DNA of 64,000 nt from Anaerolineae bacterium (GTDB lineage: Bacteria > Chloroflexota > Anaerolineae > Aggregatilineales > Phototrophicaceae), in the NCBI GenBank assembly GCA_026645945.1, contig JAPKMO010000005.1, positions 1-64,000 on the forward strand, given 5' to 3'. The notes below the pieces were generated by a model. It was not told the origin of the DNA, did no database searches, and worked only from the letters and a program-made list of their open reading frames with translations. Positions within the stretch are counted from its first letter, which is position 1. Each line of letters begins with the position of its first letter. Of this stretch, positions 38,924-47,074 are shown one piece after another. The translations under genes were made by a program, and so were the position numbers.

Positions 38924-40978
38924 ATGGAAGAACTGATAAACAGACTCAAGGGGCGAGGAAAAGAGCCTGTACCGCGCGCTGCGTCGGCCATCTTTGGCTC
39001 ATTCGGCAGCCCCGGCAGAGTACTTATGTCAACCGGGCCGAGGTTGAAGATCGGCCTGTGGCCGATTCAGAGCGTCATGCCCGAAGCCGCAATGGGAATC
39101 GCGGCTTTAATCGGTTATCTGCTCGAACGATGGCCGAATATTCGCGTATATCGTTTGTTTGCCCGTTTAGAGGGTGAACCGCAAACATACCAGTGGACAG
39201 TAAACCAATCTCAGTTCGGCGTGGATGACTGGGAACTGGACGGACTGGATGAAAACGTCGCCATCTGGGGCGCGCTGTCAAAGACGGATACAGGTTGGAA
39301 ACTGGCTTTTGAGGTTGAAAATGATCTGGCAGATGAAGGCGACGATCTGCGGACATTCAGTCATGAGGCCGGTCAGCTTGGCGAGTTAATCGCCTGGCTG
39401 CCACAGGCAGCCGACCAGATTGCCGATTATCTGGATGCCGGTGATGTTTACCATCCCGCCTATAGTACCGTGCTGGAATTAATCGAGACGGATATAGAAC
39501 GTCTGTTGGCCGATTTGTTTCATTGGGAGTTGAATCTGTTTCTGTCCCTGTGGGGGCGAGAGTGGCATCCTGAACAGATCAACAGCGATTTAGACGGGCT
39601 GTTTAATCACAGCGCGGCCTTAAAAGATGTGGGCGCGTGGTCAGTTGCAAATGCTTTCGGACACGCTTTAAGTCCGGTTTTTGACCCGGTTGGCGAGGCG
39701 CTCGTACCGCGTGTGCCGGATATATACGAACGGTACAAGCAGTACGAATTCACGGCAGCTTTTATAGCCTTTCCGCTTCACCAGTTTGACTATCGAGACG
39801 AAGCCTACGGCCTGCTGGAGGAAAACATAAACCAGCATCCTGAAAGCGTTTCGGCTTACCTGGAGCTTGCCGATTTATACGGTCGCGGTGGAGAGCTGGC
39901 CGCTGTCGTGGACGTGTACCAGCGCGCGATTGAGTCGGACATTGTATCCGCTGAGCTGTTCAGGCGTTATGCCGGACTGCTGCTTTTGCTGGATACAAAC
40001 AACATCGCGTATGGTGTGGGCGCGCGCCAGCATACCTTAGCCGGGCGGTCTTTTGTTGAGGGGTTTGTTTTAATTGATCCAGAAGAAGTCGAATCGGACT
40101 GGCTGCGGTGGGAGGCCGTTGAAGCATATCGGGAAGCGCTTGACCGAGAGCCGGATGACCTTGAAACCCATCAGCATCTCGTAATACAGCTTGCCGAACT
40201 GGGTGATGAAGAAGTGTGGGATGCCCTAGCCGAACTGGTCAAACGCGATACCGATGGCGAACGGGCGCGCAGCGTGGTAGACGCGCTGTACGGTATCGAG
40301 GACGTGTCACCGGCAGTTGATATATTCCGCGATGCGGCCAGGAAAAATCCCGATCAGGTTATGTTGAAGTTTAATCTGGCGGCGGTCTACTTGATGAATG
40401 ACGAGCCGGATGCAGCGCGGGCCGAACTGGAAGCAGCTGCGGCTATGACGGATAACCCGCAGTGGCGCTCGGAAATTGATCGTTTGATGCTGTCTGTGGA
40501 TGACCCCGATTTTGAGGCGCGTTTTGGCGAAATCAGCGATCTGGTGGGTGCAGGTGCTCAGTTGAACGCTGCCGACGTTGAGTTCCTGGAAAATGCGTTG
40601 GATAACGCGCCTAACTTTGCCGAGTGTTACACGCTTTTAGCCAACGCTTACGTGGCCTGGAACGAACATGATGATGCCCTGGAGGTGCTGTTAGATGGAC
40701 AGCGCCGTTTTCCTGACAACCCTGATATTTTGACACTATTGGGGCGCGTTCTGTGGAACGGCGGCGAAAAAGAACTGGCCTTCGACTACCTTAACAAAGG
40801 TCTGGCGCAAAATCCAAATCATGTGCCGCTGCTGGTGACGACCGCACAGTATCTGTTTGATAACGGCCAGGATGAAACCGCCAGGACGCTGCTGCTGCGC
40901 GCCGAGGCGCTTGATCCGCGACATCCGATGCTTAACGCGGTGAGGGCTTATATCGCGCGCGCTGTTAAGACAGAATAA
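38924..40978 (+). CDS. TPR-repeat protein with uncharacterised N-terminal domain
   Basis: internal ATG after terminator; 'EAYREALDREPDDLETHQHLVIQLAELGD', 'NAPNFAECYTLLANAYVAWNEHDDALEVLL' TPR-like. Confidence 0.8.
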   Translation: MEELINRLKGRGKEPVPRAASAIFGSFGSPGRVLMSTGPRLKIGLWPIQSVMPEAAMGIAALIGYLLERWPNIRVYRLFARLEGEPQTYQWTVNQSQFGVDDWELDGLDENVAIWGALSKTDTGWKLAFEVENDLADEGDDLRTFSHEAGQLGELIAWLPQAADQIADYLDAGDVYHPAYSTVLELIETDIERLLADLFHWELNLFLSLWGREWHPEQINSDLDGLFNHSAALKDVGAWSVANAFGHALSPVFDPVGEALVPRVPDIYERYKQYEFTAAFIAFPLHQFDYRDEAYGLLEENINQHPESVSAYLELADLYGRGGELAAVVDVYQRAIESDIVSAELFRRYAGLLLLLDTNNIAYGVGARQHTLAGRSFVEGFVLIDPEEVESDWLRWEAVEAYREALDREPDDLETHQHLVIQLAELGDEEVWDALAELVKRDTDGERARSVVDALYGIEDVSPAVDIFRDAARKNPDQVMLKFNLAAVYLMNDEPDAARAELEAAAAMTDNPQWRSEIDRLMLSVDDPDFEARFGEISDLVGAGAQLNAADVEFLENALDNAPNFAECYTLLANAYVAWNEHDDALEVLLDGQRRFPDNPDILTLLGRVLWNGGEKELAFDYLNKGLAQNPNHVPLLVTTAQYLFDNGQDETARTLLLRAEALDPRHPMLNAVRAYIARAVKTE

Positions 40979-41573
40979 TCGCCTGCGAACGCCCGGCGGT
41001 TAGTTCGTTTACAGCCTGGGCGAACGCCGGAAAATGTTCAACCGGCAGACGAATGATGAGTGTCACCTCGCTCGCGAAGGTTTCATCTTCAATTTTGCCT
41101 TCGTATTTGGCGGCTAATCGCTTGATTGTTTCGTAGGCGGCATAAGAAAATTCGATGCCGACCACGCAGCGCGCCCGTTTCTCCTGCGTTTTTAAGCTTG
41201 CGAGGACGGCGCGCGCTGCGTCGCTGTAGGCGCGCACCAGCCCGCCGGTGCCAAGCTTTGTGCCGCCGAAATAGCGCGTGACGACGATAATAATATCCCC
41301 GATGTTTGAGCCGCGAAGTACGGCCAGTACCGGTGGCCCGGCTGTGCCGGATGGTTCGCCGTCGTCGCTCATACCTTCGATGGTGCTGTTGCCGTACCCA
41401 ACGCGAAAAGCATAAACATGATGGCTCGCATCCAGCATATCGCTGCGGATACGCTGGATAAACTGCCGGGCTTCATCGCTGGATGTCACGCAAGCAGCAG
41501 TGGCGATAAACCGCGAGTTCGATACAGTGGTTGTGATGCGGTTTTCTTCCGCCGGAATCAGGTAGCTGCTCAT
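40965..41573 (-). CDS. yigZ: YigZ/IMPACT (UPF0029) family protein
   Basis: 'SRFIATAACVTSSDEARQFIQRIRSDMLDASHHVYAFRVG...MSDDGEPSGTAGPPVLAVL'. Confidence 0.93.
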   Translation of the reverse strand: MSSYLIPAEENRITTTVSNSRFIATAACVTSSDEARQFIQRIRSDMLDASHHVYAFRVGYGNSTIEGMSDDGEPSGTAGPPVLAVLRGSNIGDIIIVVTRYFGGTKLGTGGLVRAYSDAARAVLASLKTQEKRARCVVGIEFSYAAYETIKRLAAKYEGKIEDETFASEVTLIIRLPVEHFPAFAQAVNELTAGRSQAIILS

Positions 41574-41577
41574 AACT

Positions 41578-43878
41578 TCAAGTGAAAGATAATGTGCCGT
41601 TTATATATTCGCACAACGCGATCAGAGGTAGGGCAGGGCGAGCGGCGAAAGGCCCGCCCTGATGCCCATAATGGCCGGTATTCCACAATATGATAAGCTC
41701 TTTACGCGCCCGCGTGATGGCTACATAAAGCAGCCGAAGCCGCTCGGCGGCATAATCCAACCGCGCCTGCTGCGTAGCCCGGCCTTCGATATAGTCAAAT
41801 GGTTGTCGTAATACTGAAGTCTGCTCAAGTAGTTCCGCTTCGATATTAAGCCCATCACGCACAAACCATTTTTCTCCGATGTAAACATCGTCCGGTCGGG
41901 CTGAGGGGAAAGAATAACTGTTTACCGAAAGCAGATAAACACGATCCCATTCCAGGCCTTTGGCGGCGTGCATGGTGGCAACAGTCACCACGCCGGGTCG
42001 GGGCGCATACCCTTCAATGACATCTTCTGTCCTGAGGAAGCGGCGCTGGTTCTCTCGAATGGCTTTCAACTCGCCGACCGCGAAACCTAACGAGTTGGAC
42101 GCTGCCGCCTGCTGGGCAGCCCGGACAGACAGCGCGATTCGATAGCTTAACGCCAGATCGGTTGGGTTTCCAAACAAATCGTGCGCGATGAGCAAAATAA
42201 GCTGGTCAGCAGGCAGATATGCCGCCCGAAGCCATCTTTGCGCGTGCAGCCGGAAGTTCTGGAGGTCACGCAGCAAAACGGGGGATAAACTGGTGATATT
42301 GAGAACGTCTGTCCAGCTTGTGCCATCGGCAGGCCAGAGGAAAGACTCTACATATTTACAGCGCGTAATGGCGGCTTCAACGGTCTTTATGCCGGACTCA
42401 TCAGATTGTTCATTATCGGGTTGGTTTTGTTCAATCGCTGCTGCGCGTTTTCGCCATGCTTCGGCATATACGCGGGATAAACTGGCGGGGTTGATCGGTT
42501 CGGCGAGGTAAGTCAGAACGATTTCCAACGTTTGGGCGATAAGACGAACGCCTGCCGTAGTTTGAAGCAGTTCTTCGTTGGGGATATTATGCCGCTTTAA
42601 CACATCCAGCAGCCTGTAACCGTGCCGGTTTTCAGGCACAAGTACCGCAGCCGTTTTATCCGGGTTTTCGGGCAGCCACCGCATAAGGCTGCTGGCAACC
42701 AGCCGCAGTTCTTCATCCGATGAAACATCTTTTTCGGGTTGATAATGTATGTGTACCATGGTTTCGCCAATAGAGGGATTGGGCTGAGGGTCACCCGGCG
42801 GAACGGGCTGAATGAAGTGATCTTCAAACGTATGGCGCAGGTCAACAGTTGGGTGCATCTGCGCCGTCCATTTTATGAGCGCGTTAGCCAGGTCGGCAAT
42901 GGGACGACCGGAGCGCCCGGACTGGTGCAGGCGAACCAGAGCAACGTTGGATTCGCGCGCAAATGACCGGAGATAACGCGGGTGGGCTGTGGTGAATGTT
43001 GTATTGATTGCCTGGTTAGGGTCGCCAACGCGCGTCCAGTTCCGGTCATTTGACAGCAGGCGGAGCAGACGCTCTTGCAGCAGGCTGCTGTCCTGCGCCT
43101 CGTCCTCAAGCACGTAAGGCCAGCGTTTTTGGAGGCGCTTCAGGAAATCTGCGTTTTGTTCCAGAACAAACAGCGCGTGAAGGATGAGATCGTCAAAGTC
43201 CACCGCACCCTGGAACTTGAGCCTGCGCTGGTATTCGTCATATATCTGCGTCGTAAAATGGAGCAGCGAATGACGAGACAAATCGGGTACGGCATATAAA
43301 TCACCGGGGGTTAACGAATAATCTTTGCAGTGTTTGATGAACCGCTCGCAAAGCTGTATTGCCAGCTCAGGGAGCTGCCGCTCATACACATTGTGGAATC
43401 GTTTCGGGTTTTCTCGAACTCCGGTGGCTAAATACGGGTCGAATTCGCCGCGCCTGGATCGAAATGCGGCCTGCGTTAAGTCGCGTATGATGTGCCGGGA
43501 AGCCTGTTCATCAAGGATGTGGAAATCGTCGCCCAGTCCGGCCAGCGCAGGCCGGTCACGCACAATATCGTGTGCCAGACCATGCAGGGTGCGAATACGA
43601 TAACCGACATCAGGCAGCAGGTCGCGGTCGTGTTGAAGGATATGCCGGATCCGTTTACGCAGGCTGTAAACGGCGCTGTTGCTGAAGGTTACGACCAGAA
43701 TCTCCGTCCCGTTTAAAATTTCCTTTGCTGAAAGTTTCCCGACGAGCTGTGCGGCAAGGTGCGCGAGCGTGAACGTTTTGCCGCTGCCCGGCGTTGCAAT
43801 CACGGCCATCTTGCCGGTTTTATGGTGGATAATCTCCTGCTGCGCCTGGCGTAAAAGAGGATTGAGTAAGCTGGTCAT
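41578..43878 (-). CDS. UvrD/PcrA-like SF1 DNA helicase without obvious nuclease domain
   Basis: 'MAVIATPGSGKTFTLAHLA' (I), 'VLEDEAQDSSLLQERLL' (II), 'WTRVGDPNQAI' (III), 'VATMHAAKGLEWDRVYLLSV' (V), 'LRLLYVAITRARKELII' (VI). Confidence 0.93.
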   Translation of the reverse strand: MTSLLNPLLRQAQQEIIHHKTGKMAVIATPGSGKTFTLAHLAAQLVGKLSAKEILNGTEILVVTFSNSAVYSLRKRIRHILQHDRDLLPDVGYRIRTLHGLAHDIVRDRPALAGLGDDFHILDEQASRHIIRDLTQAAFRSRRGEFDPYLATGVRENPKRFHNVYERQLPELAIQLCERFIKHCKDYSLTPGDLYAVPDLSRHSLLHFTTQIYDEYQRRLKFQGAVDFDDLILHALFVLEQNADFLKRLQKRWPYVLEDEAQDSSLLQERLLRLLSNDRNWTRVGDPNQAINTTFTTAHPRYLRSFARESNVALVRLHQSGRSGRPIADLANALIKWTAQMHPTVDLRHTFEDHFIQPVPPGDPQPNPSIGETMVHIHYQPEKDVSSDEELRLVASSLMRWLPENPDKTAAVLVPENRHGYRLLDVLKRHNIPNEELLQTTAGVRLIAQTLEIVLTYLAEPINPASLSRVYAEAWRKRAAAIEQNQPDNEQSDESGIKTVEAAITRCKYVESFLWPADGTSWTDVLNITSLSPVLLRDLQNFRLHAQRWLRAAYLPADQLILLIAHDLFGNPTDLALSYRIALSVRAAQQAAASNSLGFAVGELKAIRENQRRFLRTEDVIEGYAPRPGVVTVATMHAAKGLEWDRVYLLSVNSYSFPSARPDDVYIGEKWFVRDGLNIEAELLEQTSVLRQPFDYIEGRATQQARLDYAAERLRLLYVAITRARKELIILWNTGHYGHQGGPFAARPALPLIALCEYINGTLSFT

Positions 43879-45923
43879 GGTGTTGAAGTGCGTGTCCGGT
43901 CAAACATCTGTTGAAGGACGAAAGTCAGCCGCCCGCGCTGCTCGTATCCGCTGGCGCTGATGTCACAAGCTGCGGCAAAAACTCCTTTGTGGCATCTTCG
44001 CAGCAGGCCCAGGATCAGGCTGCGAAGGCGAGTTTTCTGCGCTGCCGTCTCTAAATCATCCGTCCACATATCTCCACCGGGGAAACCCCGCCGCAGAACG
44101 TAAGGGTGCGTTAGCGGCTGTTCAATTCTTTCAGTCCAGCCGTCGTCCCCGATATCCAACCAGAATTGATAATCCACACGCAGATCGCGGGTTAAATACG
44201 TATGTGCCGGGCCGATGAAAACAGCCTCAACAGGTTCAAGGTCAGCATCTGGCGATACTAAACCATCCAATGTCAGCCGGACGAAGCTGCGCATAATCTC
44301 GGTCCAGTTATCGTCTTCGCCGTTATAAACCGCTTCAGTAAAACTCCGGGCCGCCGCCACAAAATTGTTTATGGGCGCGCGAAAGGAAACATCCGAACAG
44401 CCCGCGAACCCCGGCTGTAGGATTACCTCTTCAGCAAAACGGCTGATGAAACCATCTGGCGGCGACGATGCGATTTCCGCTTGGTGCGCTGTAAACCAGG
44501 AAAACATCTGCTCATAATGCTGGCAGATTGACTCGGTCAGCCTGGTTTGCACAGGCTCGGTAAGCTTCTCAAGCCCGACAAGCTCGCCGTTTCGGTATAC
44601 AACTTGCGTTAACAACGCCGCCCTTACTGGGTCTAACCCTTCGACAGCCGTTTGCAGCGCGAAGGACACTTCTGCCGGCTGTGGCCGCGCCTCAGCTTCC
44701 TCAATGCACAATCTCAGAAAGATCACCACTGCCTGAACAATTGGTTCCAGGATGAGCGGGCGAGAAGGGCGGTAGCTTTTTGCGGGGATGCCAACAGAAT
44801 CGAAACGCGATTGTAGGGCAAAAAGCAGCGAATCGCTTAGATAGGGCGCGATGACAGCTATGCGCTTGGGGGCGACATTCTTTTGATGAACCAACTTCGT
44901 AATTTCCGCAGCGCAGCAGTCAATCATCTGCGGATAAAACGTTGTCGAAACAAAATGAAGGGCTGGCGAGCGACCACTGATGACGGGCAGTGTATCAGCA
45001 GGGGAGTCCCGCAATAGAGCATCAGCGATTTCCACAATACCGAGCATACCGGCGGAAAGGCTGGCCGGTTTTTCCCAGATGGCACGATCTGAACAAACAT
45101 CCGCAAGCAGATAAGCATGGGCCGGGTCTGCCCCTAAGAATGTTCTGAAGCCGCCGTCAGTGTCGTAAATGATGATCGTTTTGTGAACATACTCCATGCA
45201 CCAGAATATAAAATCATGCGCCAGCGCGCCCATCTCCTCTACATTGTCGGCAGCAAGATAATCATATGACCGCTCAAAATGTTCCTGGAATTCGTTTATA
45301 TCAAGCAGGTTTTCTACAAGCAGCCGAATCTGTAAGGCATAATCAAGCAGCCCGCGCTTCAGACAAAAATTTTGGTAGCTGTGAGCAATTCTGATAACGG
45401 TGTGGTAAATGTCCCGTTGTTCTCCCTTGGCGTGAATCAGGCGGTTTTCTGCTTCATCTAGCGCCAAGCCTGCCAGTGCTGCGTTGTTGATGCTGTCCAG
45501 AATCTGCAAGGCGATGCGATAGGCGGGCAGGTGAACGCCGTCAAAAACGCCAGTTTCTAGATAGGGTCGAGCGAATCGTGTGATGTAGTATCCTGCCAGA
45601 TCAGATGTTAAAAATACTGGCTCCTGTACCGCCGCGTCAACTGGCAGTACCTGTTTAAGCAGCGGCCAGAAGCGCCGGATAGACCGACGAGCGAAGCTGC
45701 TTAAAGTCACAATCAGCGGGTTTTTGCGTCCGGGTGGGATGCTGATGTCCTGTTGATAGGGGATATTGAGCTGAGAGGGCGGCACTAAAACGAGCACCCG
45801 TTCAGGAGCGATGCCCTGTTTTTGAATCGCGCGATTTAAATGCTGGATGACGGCGCGCGTTTTGCCGCTTCCGGCAGGTCCTTCCAGAAAAAGAGAGCGT
45901 TGGAAAGCGGGTAGAGTAGGCAC
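43875..45923 (-). CDS. AddB/UvrD-like protein with intact Walker A but degenerate downstream helicase motifs (GTG start)
   Basis: 'LFLEGPAGSGKTRAVIQHL'; 'YLAADNVEEMGALAHDF', 'IIIYDTDGGFRTFLGADPAHAYLLADV', C-terminal 'LRSLILGLLRRCHKGVFAAACDISASGYEQRGRLTFVLQQMF'. Confidence 0.7.
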   Translation of the reverse strand: MPTLPAFQRSLFLEGPAGSGKTRAVIQHLNRAIQKQGIAPERVLVLVPPSQLNIPYQQDISIPPGRKNPLIVTLSSFARRSIRRFWPLLKQVLPVDAAVQEPVFLTSDLAGYYITRFARPYLETGVFDGVHLPAYRIALQILDSINNAALAGLALDEAENRLIHAKGEQRDIYHTVIRIAHSYQNFCLKRGLLDYALQIRLLVENLLDINEFQEHFERSYDYLAADNVEEMGALAHDFIFWCMEYVHKTIIIYDTDGGFRTFLGADPAHAYLLADVCSDRAIWEKPASLSAGMLGIVEIADALLRDSPADTLPVISGRSPALHFVSTTFYPQMIDCCAAEITKLVHQKNVAPKRIAVIAPYLSDSLLFALQSRFDSVGIPAKSYRPSRPLILEPIVQAVVIFLRLCIEEAEARPQPAEVSFALQTAVEGLDPVRAALLTQVVYRNGELVGLEKLTEPVQTRLTESICQHYEQMFSWFTAHQAEIASSPPDGFISRFAEEVILQPGFAGCSDVSFRAPINNFVAAARSFTEAVYNGEDDNWTEIMRSFVRLTLDGLVSPDADLEPVEAVFIGPAHTYLTRDLRVDYQFWLDIGDDGWTERIEQPLTHPYVLRRGFPGGDMWTDDLETAAQKTRLRSLILGLLRRCHKGVFAAACDISASGYEQRGRLTFVLQQMFDRTRTSTP

Positions 45924-45925
45924 GA

Positions 45926-47074
45926 TCAGGGCAGGTCCAGATCAGGGTTGGTGCTGATGAATGCGCTGAATACCGGCGGTTCAATGATGACACGATTGCC
46001 TTGAATACGTAAGAGCCGCTTTTGGGAAAGCGCCGCAAAAGTCTGTTTGGTTGATAAATCGTTAATGTCAATATTGGGTTCGGGACGGGCGAACTCTTTG
46101 AGTATCGCCTGTTCCAGCGGCGTTAAGCTGGCCCAGATGGTCTTACATTCCACCCGAACTGCTCTACGAAACGCCAGCTGGCGGACAATATGATCGGCTT
46201 TGGTCATAATAGTATCCGGGTCAAGCTGCTCCAGAGTGTCAAGCGCGCGGAAACCCGCTCGGAGTAAACCAGCATAGCGCCCGGTAGCCCACAAAAGAAA
46301 GTTTAAGGTGTAATCATCGTAGCTGCGCTCGTTGCGGCGAGCCAGACCTTCCAGCATTCTACGAGCATCTGTTTCATTGTAAGGCCCAACGTAATATACA
46401 CTGTCATTAAAAAGTTCTGCAAACGGCTCAATATCAAGTGGATGAATGCCCAGGCTTTGAGAAACATCAGGAATTGACGCCCGCGTGAACGTAAGGTAAG
46501 AAAGCTGGTTTTTGTTGCTGTCCCGTATGCCGCGTAAGGTAAGGAAAAATTTTACGGGCAGCTCGCGCAGCATCTCCTCAAATTCATCGAACATAAACAC
46601 GATCTGGACGCCGCGCTTCATGAAAAGTTCCAGGCCAAGCTCAAAGTAGCGCAGCCCCATGTAGGCATACAGCGGATTCGTGCCGTCCTGAAGCGTCTGG
46701 TAGGTTTCGTAAAACATGCGCCCGTCGTTTTCTCCCAAAATGTCAAAGGGATAAAATGCTAGGAAAAGCCGGTGCATCATCAGCTCATACCCGGCCCAGC
46801 AGCGTATTTGTTCGGCATCAGGGCTGTCAGAGGGTAGGGGTCCCAAAAGGCTGGGGTCAATAATGATCGCTTTAAACAGCTTGCCCTGGGCGACCTCTTT
46901 CATATAATAGGCCTGCACTTCAGGGTCGGCCAGATGTTGTAAAAGATTGGACTTCCCGACGCTCCCCACGCCGACCAATGAACATGAGTCCGACGCGCGC
47001 CAGCGTTCCATAACGTAGCCAACTTCATCTTGCCGAAAGGTGATCGGCTGACTACGAGTACGGGAATTTTTCAT
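45926..47074 (-). CDS. AAA/STAND-type ATPase with C-terminal winged-helix-like region
   Basis: Walker A 'SLVGVGSVGKSNLLQHL', Walker B 'QIVFMFDEFEEML', sensor-like 'LSYLTFTRASIP', C-terminal 'LTPLEQAILKEFARPEPNIDINDLSTKQTFAALSQKRLLRIQGNRVIIEPPVF'. Confidence 0.8.
   Translation of the reverse strand: MKNSRTRSQPITFRQDEVGYVMERWRASDSCSLVGVGSVGKSNLLQHLADPEVQAYYMKEVAQGKLFKAIIIDPSLLGPLPSDSPDAEQIRCWAGYELMMHRLFLAFYPFDILGENDGRMFYETYQTLQDGTNPLYAYMGLRYFELGLELFMKRGVQIVFMFDEFEEMLRELPVKFFLTLRGIRDSNKNQLSYLTFTRASIPDVSQSLGIHPLDIEPFAELFNDSVYYVGPYNETDARRMLEGLARRNERSYDDYTLNFLLWATGRYAGLLRAGFRALDTLEQLDPDTIMTKADHIVRQLAFRRAVRVECKTIWASLTPLEQAILKEFARPEPNIDINDLSTKQTFAALSQKRLLRIQGNRVIIEPPVFSAFISTNPDLDLP

Follow-up and report, generated by a model that had tools for sequence, protein, structure and literature searches.

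A helicase-like gene pair of Anaerolineae as probable motor subunits of a split AddAB-like machine, kept in one clade without its nuclease

The gene pair described here lies in a 64-kb stretch of DNA from an Anaerolineae bacterium (assembly GCA_026645945.1, contig JAPKMO010000005.1, positions 1-64,000), the whole of which is referred to below as the window; its genome is G000. The pair encodes MID, a degenerate SF1A motor subunit, and UVRD, an intact UvrD-like SF1A helicase. With a probability of about 0.62, the two proteins form the motor-type half of an AddAB-like helicase-nuclease that is split: its nuclease is in other lineages a separate small protein (NUC), and the clade of the window keeps the motor pair without NUC. 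An ATPase gene (AAA) stands before the pair and yigZ after it, as follows.

45926-47074, minus strand: AAA, 382 aa, ATG start
43875-45923, minus strand: MID, degenerate SF1A motor subunit, AddB/AdnB-like, without a nuclease domain, 682 aa, GTG start
41578-43878, minus strand: UVRD, intact UvrD-like SF1A helicase, without a nuclease domain, 766 aa, ATG start
41574-41577, no strand: the UVRD-yigZ junction of 4 nt, the place of NUC and often RecJ in other lineages; a remnant of NUC would not fit
40965-41573, minus strand: yigZ (UPF0029/IMPACT family), conserved right-hand neighbour and marker of the ancestral locus

AAA and MID are separated by 2 nt, and MID and UVRD overlap by 4 nt. A sequence-only reading of this DNA had listed three minus-strand genes with these positions and junctions, and the open reading frames (ORFs) agree with it in full.

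UVRD is an intact helicase by domain and motif content. Pfam assigns it UvrD-helicase (E = 1.7e-48) and UvrD_C (E = 1.2e-19). Across an alignment of 50 loci, the SF1A motifs are near-invariant: I (PGSGKT), II (DEAQ), III (GDPNQAI), V (HxAKGLEWDRVYL) and VI (RLLYVxITRA), with Ia conserved too. The Pfam scan finds no PDDEXK_1 domain in UVRD, and the protein ends at 766 aa. MID is matched by UvrD-helicase only weakly (E = 1.6e-8), and its motifs are altered in a consistent manner. Among 79 aligned homologues, the Walker A lysine is invariant (79/79), and motif II reads D-N-x-E-E, the catalytic Walker B glutamate being replaced by asparagine (75) or histidine (4). Motif III reads YDxDGGYRxFLGADP across homologues; the usual glutamine and arginine are gone (the UvrD/PcrA consensus is GDxDQSIYxxRGAD). 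Since Walker A is kept and the catalytic Walker B glutamate is lost, MID probably binds ATP and does not hydrolyse it. The motifs of the two proteins map to the window as follows.

43774-43797, minus strand: UVRD motif I, ATPGSGKT, aa 28-35 (alignment of 50 loci)
43093-43104, minus strand: UVRD motif II, DEAQ, aa 259-262 (same alignment)
41935-41976, minus strand: UVRD motif V, THxAKGLEWDRVYL region, aa 635-648 (same alignment)
41707-41736, minus strand: UVRD motif VI, RLLYVAITRA, aa 715-724 (same alignment)
45858-45884, minus strand: MID motif I (Walker A), EGPAGSGKT, aa 14-22, with the invariant lysine
45234-45248, minus strand: MID degenerate motif II, DNVEE, aa 226-230, with glutamate replaced
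45123-45170, minus strand: MID degenerate motif III, IYDTDGGFRTFLGADP, aa 252-267, with the motif glutamine and arginine lost

The AlphaFold2 model of MID (predicted local distance difference test score, pLDDT, 86.9) has a complete SF1A fold with no added domain. In a structure search with this model, UvrD is the best match by E-value (6e-23), AddB (4cej_B) is found at E = 2.2e-19 with TMq 0.63, and AdnB (6ppr_B) is the top match by TM-score (TMq 0.69). A sequence search of the PDB with MID gives no match, and an NCBIfam scan of AAA, MID and UVRD gives sub-threshold similarity only. No PD-(D/E)XK domain is detected in MID by the Pfam scan or in the predicted structure. Modelled fold and motifs together, rather than sequence alone, place MID as a degenerate AddB/AdnB-like SF1A subunit. 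These results uphold three points of the sequence-only reading: a middle protein with a Walker A and degenerate motifs that is AddB-like, a UvrD-like protein keeping motifs I, II, III, V and VI, and no nuclease motif in either motor.

In other genera, a nuclease gene follows the pair. The order is MID-UVRD-NUC, often then RecJ, with yigZ next in several (MID-UVRD-NUC-RecJ-yigZ). NUC is a stand-alone PD-(D/E)XK protein of ~280 aa (PDDEXK_1, E ~1e-26). The motifs CxxCx5C and D[WYF]K[TS] are present in 38/38 collected proteins, the strict N-terminal cysteine motif C[PAQ]RR[FY] in 31 of the 38, and GxxFH and QxxxY are seen in the alignment. From what is generally known of AddB and Cas4, we take NUC to be a nuclease of that kind with an iron-sulphur (Fe-S) cluster. 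The operon RecJ is ~775 aa long (L070-L072, L106-L111), ~185 aa longer than the RecJ of the window genome. The extension of one operon RecJ has a weak helix-turn-helix match, and this type may be a specialised RecJ paralogue.

NUC and the motors occur together. Of 61 related whole genomes (G-numbers), 43 carry both motors, and 36 of these encode NUC; it is absent from all 14 that lack both. An independent sample of the class gives 28/31 MID-positive versus 0/8 MID-negative genomes with NUC (Fisher p 2.7e-6, uncorrected for relatedness; the co-occurrence statistics throughout ignore phylogeny, and UVRD was not searched again in this sample). As NUC is often unlinked from MID in the class sample, the association does not stem from synteny alone.

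The conserved unit is the MID-UVRD pair, not a trio with AAA. MID and strong UVRD orthologues are each present in 45 of the 61 relatives. Both motors are found in 43 of these genomes, neither in 14, MID only in two (G023, G050) and UVRD only in another two, G052 and G060, in which a contig end truncates the UVRD gene. UVRD stands immediately after MID at most loci of the relatives and in 53 of 79 MID neighbourhoods of a named genome collection, which gave 324 relatives; the best 80 were examined and 79 neighbourhoods were readable. These best 80 have Chloroflexota/Anaerolineae titles, among them Anaerolinea thermolimosa and records under the names Thermoflexus and Litorilinea. Sampled across the phylum, MID is present at full length in 33/41 genomes of the same class and in none of the other Chloroflexota classes, which give only short, weak SF1 matches. 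The MID-UVRD operon breaks up in some lineages. MID (L081) and UVRD with NUC (L082) are on different contigs in G014, and MID is alone in several Caldilineaceae loci (L131, L155, L163, L165, L171 and L180). A fused helicase-nuclease was considered for the large ORF (1146-1320 aa) that follows MID in Caldilineaceae, but the proteins encoded there are of Amidase_2 and NHL-repeat type.

To our knowledge, RecBCD, AddAB and AdnAB are the three bacterial end-processing machines, and their nuclease domains are fused to motors. The present system resembles AddAB in having one active UvrD-like motor and one degenerate SF1A subunit that keeps its Walker A, in the association of an AddB-type Fe-S PD-(D/E)XK nuclease with the pair in most genomes, and in its B-before-A order (MID then UVRD), as in the window genome's own addB-addA. 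It differs in that the nuclease is a separate protein of ~280 aa rather than the C-terminus of AddB, and is absent in the window clade; UVRD lacks the C-terminal PD-(D/E)XK nuclease of AddA, RecJ is often part of the operon, and the pair is shorter (682/766 aa versus 1088/1181 aa for canonical AddB/AddA of the window genome). AdnAB likewise has two SF1A motor-type subunits, and AdnB is the closest match of MID by TM-score. Each AdnAB subunit carries a nuclease domain, however, and AdnB is an active motor, whereas MID and UVRD have no nuclease domains and MID has lost its Walker B glutamate. We rate the MID-UVRD system a variant of the AddAB kind, further derived in the window clade. The split machine is not described in the literature searched, which covered few subscription journals and no preprints. 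Fusions of UvrD with a Cas4-like domain (pfam12705) and unfused operons of the two, the latter 'mostly Clostridiales', have been reported with a possible role in DNA repair (PMC5704561). Those operons share with the present one a UvrD-like helicase and a Cas4/AddB-like nuclease; the part of that paper which describes them mentions neither a degenerate MID subunit nor RecJ.

The window clade (G000, G005, G006, G008 and G013) has lost NUC and the operon RecJ, and its NUC-free state is derived. All five genomes carry both motors, and the 61-genome search finds NUC in none of them; among the 61, these are also the ones with AAA immediately before MID. Two further genomes with both motors, G001 and G033, also lack NUC, for which a contig end and a completeness of 74% are the likely reasons. 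The window clade has a nested position in the MID tree, and its sister is L105. The order AAA-MID-UVRD-NUC-yigZ of L105 is intermediate: RecJ is gone from the locus and NUC is kept. The claim of a nuclease-less two-motor complex, made in the sequence-only reading, holds for the window clade as a derived state; it does not hold for the system ancestrally, which goes with a separate PD-(D/E)XK protein and often RecJ.

The loss of NUC is accompanied by change in MID. Of 101 MID sites that elsewhere reach a conservation of 95% or more, 18-23 are altered in the NUC-minus rows of the alignment, against 0-9 in the NUC-positive rows checked; UVRD is altered at 7-9 of 159 conserved sites, within the NUC-positive range. 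Eleven MID sites differ in every one of the four NUC-minus rows; L105 keeps nine of the 11 intact. Pairwise divergence of MID relative to UVRD gives a ratio of 1.45-2.0 in the window clade versus mostly 0.6-1.4 elsewhere. Such relaxation after the loss would be expected if MID holds NUC, an indirect indication from a single lineage.

The window pair is unlikely to be a functionless remnant, on its way out after the loss of NUC in a genome equipped with canonical AddAB. Decay would agree with the loss of NUC and the operon RecJ, with the acceleration of MID at the conserved sites given above, and with several genomes assigned to the same genus that have no pair at all. However, the ORFs are intact in the window and its relatives, as are all UVRD motifs and the MID Walker A, and the ratio of nonsynonymous to synonymous substitution (dN/dS) is ~0.2 for MID and ~0.12 for UVRD across deep divergence, which indicates that both motors are still under purifying selection in the window clade. 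The pair is kept in five genomes down to a MID identity of 49%, and this argues for use.

About equally improbable is a swap, by which the pair recruits a different nuclease from elsewhere in the genome instead of NUC and the machine remains a nuclease. Candidates in the window genome are RecJ (C88), a Cas4 within a CRISPR cluster (C49) and a TM0106-like nuclease (C229), but all three are unlinked to the pair and none is a NUC orthologue. The relaxed MID sites also fit loss, rather than exchange, of a bound nuclease, if indirectly. The RecJ at C88 is the only one of the genome, is 591 aa long and is 32-36% identical to the operon type. The PDDEXK_1 proteins of the genome, considered as a hidden NUC, are canonical AddB and AddA, Cas4 and the TM0106-like protein, the last two named from ORFs and neighbours rather than by family search. 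At C49 (L099), a CRISPR adaptation cluster reads as Cas1, Cas2 and Cas4 with PDDEXK_1.

A mechanism can be proposed for MID and UVRD as motor subunits of a split AddAB-like helicase-nuclease, in which complex formation, strand polarity and biological role are what we infer; gene content, motifs, fold, co-occurrence, loss and selection are observed. (i) UVRD would be the only active motor, translocating 3'-5', as is usual for its family, and unwinding the duplex. (ii) MID, with bound ATP, would clamp or read the other strand, as a structural or DNA-reading partner like the inactive helicase domain of AddB. (iii) NUC, of AddB nuclease type, and RecJ would degrade the 5'-ended strand. Because there is no nuclease domain of AddA type, mainly the 5' strand would be resected and a 3' tail left for RecA, with no need for a Chi switch. 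(iv) In the window clade, only the unwinding part is left in the operon, and canonical AddAB would perform standard end processing. There the pair probably unwinds ends or forks for nucleases acting in trans, such as the genomic RecJ, or serves as an accessory helicase; service to trans-acting single-strand nucleases and a fork or anti-recombination role appear the likeliest uses.

None of 16 genomes from families f2 and f4-f7 has an ADDB_N match, and 14 of 16 genomes scanned for UvrD-type helicases have no ORF >1000 aa of this type; in the class sample, ADDB_N reaches its cut-off in only 6 of the 31 genomes with MID. As ADDB_N matches and long UvrD ORFs are largely absent there, end processing in these genomes may fall mainly to the split machine, apparently their only one of AddAB/RecBCD type in many cases. 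The ADDB_N model is narrow and misses most control genomes with other types, so this point carries only moderate weight. A wider and more tentative proposal is that Anaerolineae possess an end-resection class of their own, composed of an active motor, a scaffold that binds ATP and, together with RecJ, a detachable Fe-S nuclease for the 5' strand, and that this class takes the place of RecBCD/AddAB in many genomes; the window clade might then have shed the nuclease to yield a nuclease-free AddAB-like helicase with a new role. A class-wide variant with a separate, losable nuclease would show how end-processing complexes assemble, and nuclease and motor functions would be genetically separable in nature. 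The window clade represents a natural loss-of-nuclease experiment, in which the released MID sites predict the docking surface of the nuclease.

Several results weigh against assigning the pair to an AddAB-like helicase-nuclease. Sequence does not set MID apart from other SF1A helicases: ADDB_N matches the window MID only at E = 0.029, below the cut-off, although values of 1e-4 to 8e-4 are reached in some relatives, and alignment of the MID profile to single AddA/AddB sequences by hhalign was uninformative, as was the same comparison with the NUC profile. Outside the window clade, 3/31 MID-positive genomes of the class sample lack NUC (G204, G306 and G346, the last with a weak hit only). Most genomes are incomplete metagenome-assembled genomes, so absences are soft and inflated. 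The four NUC-minus rows form one lineage and count as a single loss. Finally, some genomes carry both the pair and canonical AddAB, so not every genome with the pair has the split machine alone.

The sequence-only reading had joined AAA to the motors as a co-conserved trio, in which AAA would regulate or load them. Such a nuclease-free, three-component machine is improbable, and more so than either remnant or swap. AAA carries both Walker motifs, A and B, and its C-terminal part is helical, the last elements being a small strand hairpin and a helix. No Pfam, NCBIfam or PADLOC family matches it significantly. Its AlphaFold2 model (pLDDT 90) resembles archaeal Walker ATPases and Orc/Cdc6 or STAND-type ATPases; AAA is thus predicted to be a P-loop ATPase of STAND or Orc/Cdc6-like fold, and such proteins are possible loaders or switches. 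A trio is also suggested by the contiguous, co-directional AAA-MID-UVRD genes of the window and four related genomes (G005, G006, G008 and G013), by an AAA gene directly upstream of the pair in L105 and two genes away in L106, and by very strong constraint on AAA (dN/dS ~0.05). This slow evolution is, however, far from that of MID and unlike that of a co-evolving partner. AAA occurs without MID in at least 7 of the 61 relatives, many MID-positive genomes have no close AAA, and AAA is near MID in only 5 of the 79 readable neighbourhoods. Thirteen members of the window's family have AAA immediately before yigZ, without intervening motor genes; several of these loci also match the window in having Vut_1 on the opposite flank and the TPR gene past yigZ. 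AAA is a widespread, independent gene that is syntenic with yigZ and is not conserved as a component of the machine. Most simply, AAA and yigZ are old neighbours, and in the window's clade the motor pair lies between them. As the distribution of AAA and its synteny with yigZ are independent of the motors, regulation or loading by AAA loses its basis. The 13 adjacencies are at L043, L048-L049, L051-L059 and L061, and a functional link between AAA and YigZ is possible.

Least probable of all is an anti-phage defence system (a Gabija-like helicase or other) in place of repair: UVRD matches the PADLOC models GajB (E 3e-41, the best score) and RTasHel (E 4e-38), as any UvrD-like helicase would, and presence within the genus is patchy, but no GajA, reverse transcriptase or defence genes stand beside the pair, the family is near-core across the class, and no MID relative was found in viral contigs. 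The likeness to Gabija lies in the UvrD-like helicase domain; partner and context are different, with no GajA (TOPRIM/ATPase) among the neighbours of the pair or in the PADLOC scan of the trio. The PADLOC matches are generic UvrD-type similarity, and the genes around the pair in the window are housekeeping genes (yigZ, a Vut_1 transporter, a TPR protein and a carboxylase-like gene). The proposal of a candidate defence machine finds no support here.

In family f2, the gene immediately before MID encodes a second PDDEXK_1 protein (~340 aa), beside NUC in most of these genomes. Its gene and further loci of the second PDDEXK_1 are located as follows.

L132:6944-7963: second PDDEXK_1 gene upstream of MID
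G037:C48:122766-123167: further second PDDEXK_1 locus
G050:C68:8507-8932: further second PDDEXK_1 locus
G055:C234:2063-2464: further second PDDEXK_1 locus

Within one assigned genus there are two very different MID lineages (~34% identical), one in G001, G003, G004, G012 and G014 and the other in G000, G005, G006, G008 and G013; other genomes of that assignment have no MID. The AAA proteins of these genomes are nevertheless 58-72% identical. The two lineages may reflect horizontal replacement of the motor pair, or a genus too broadly drawn.

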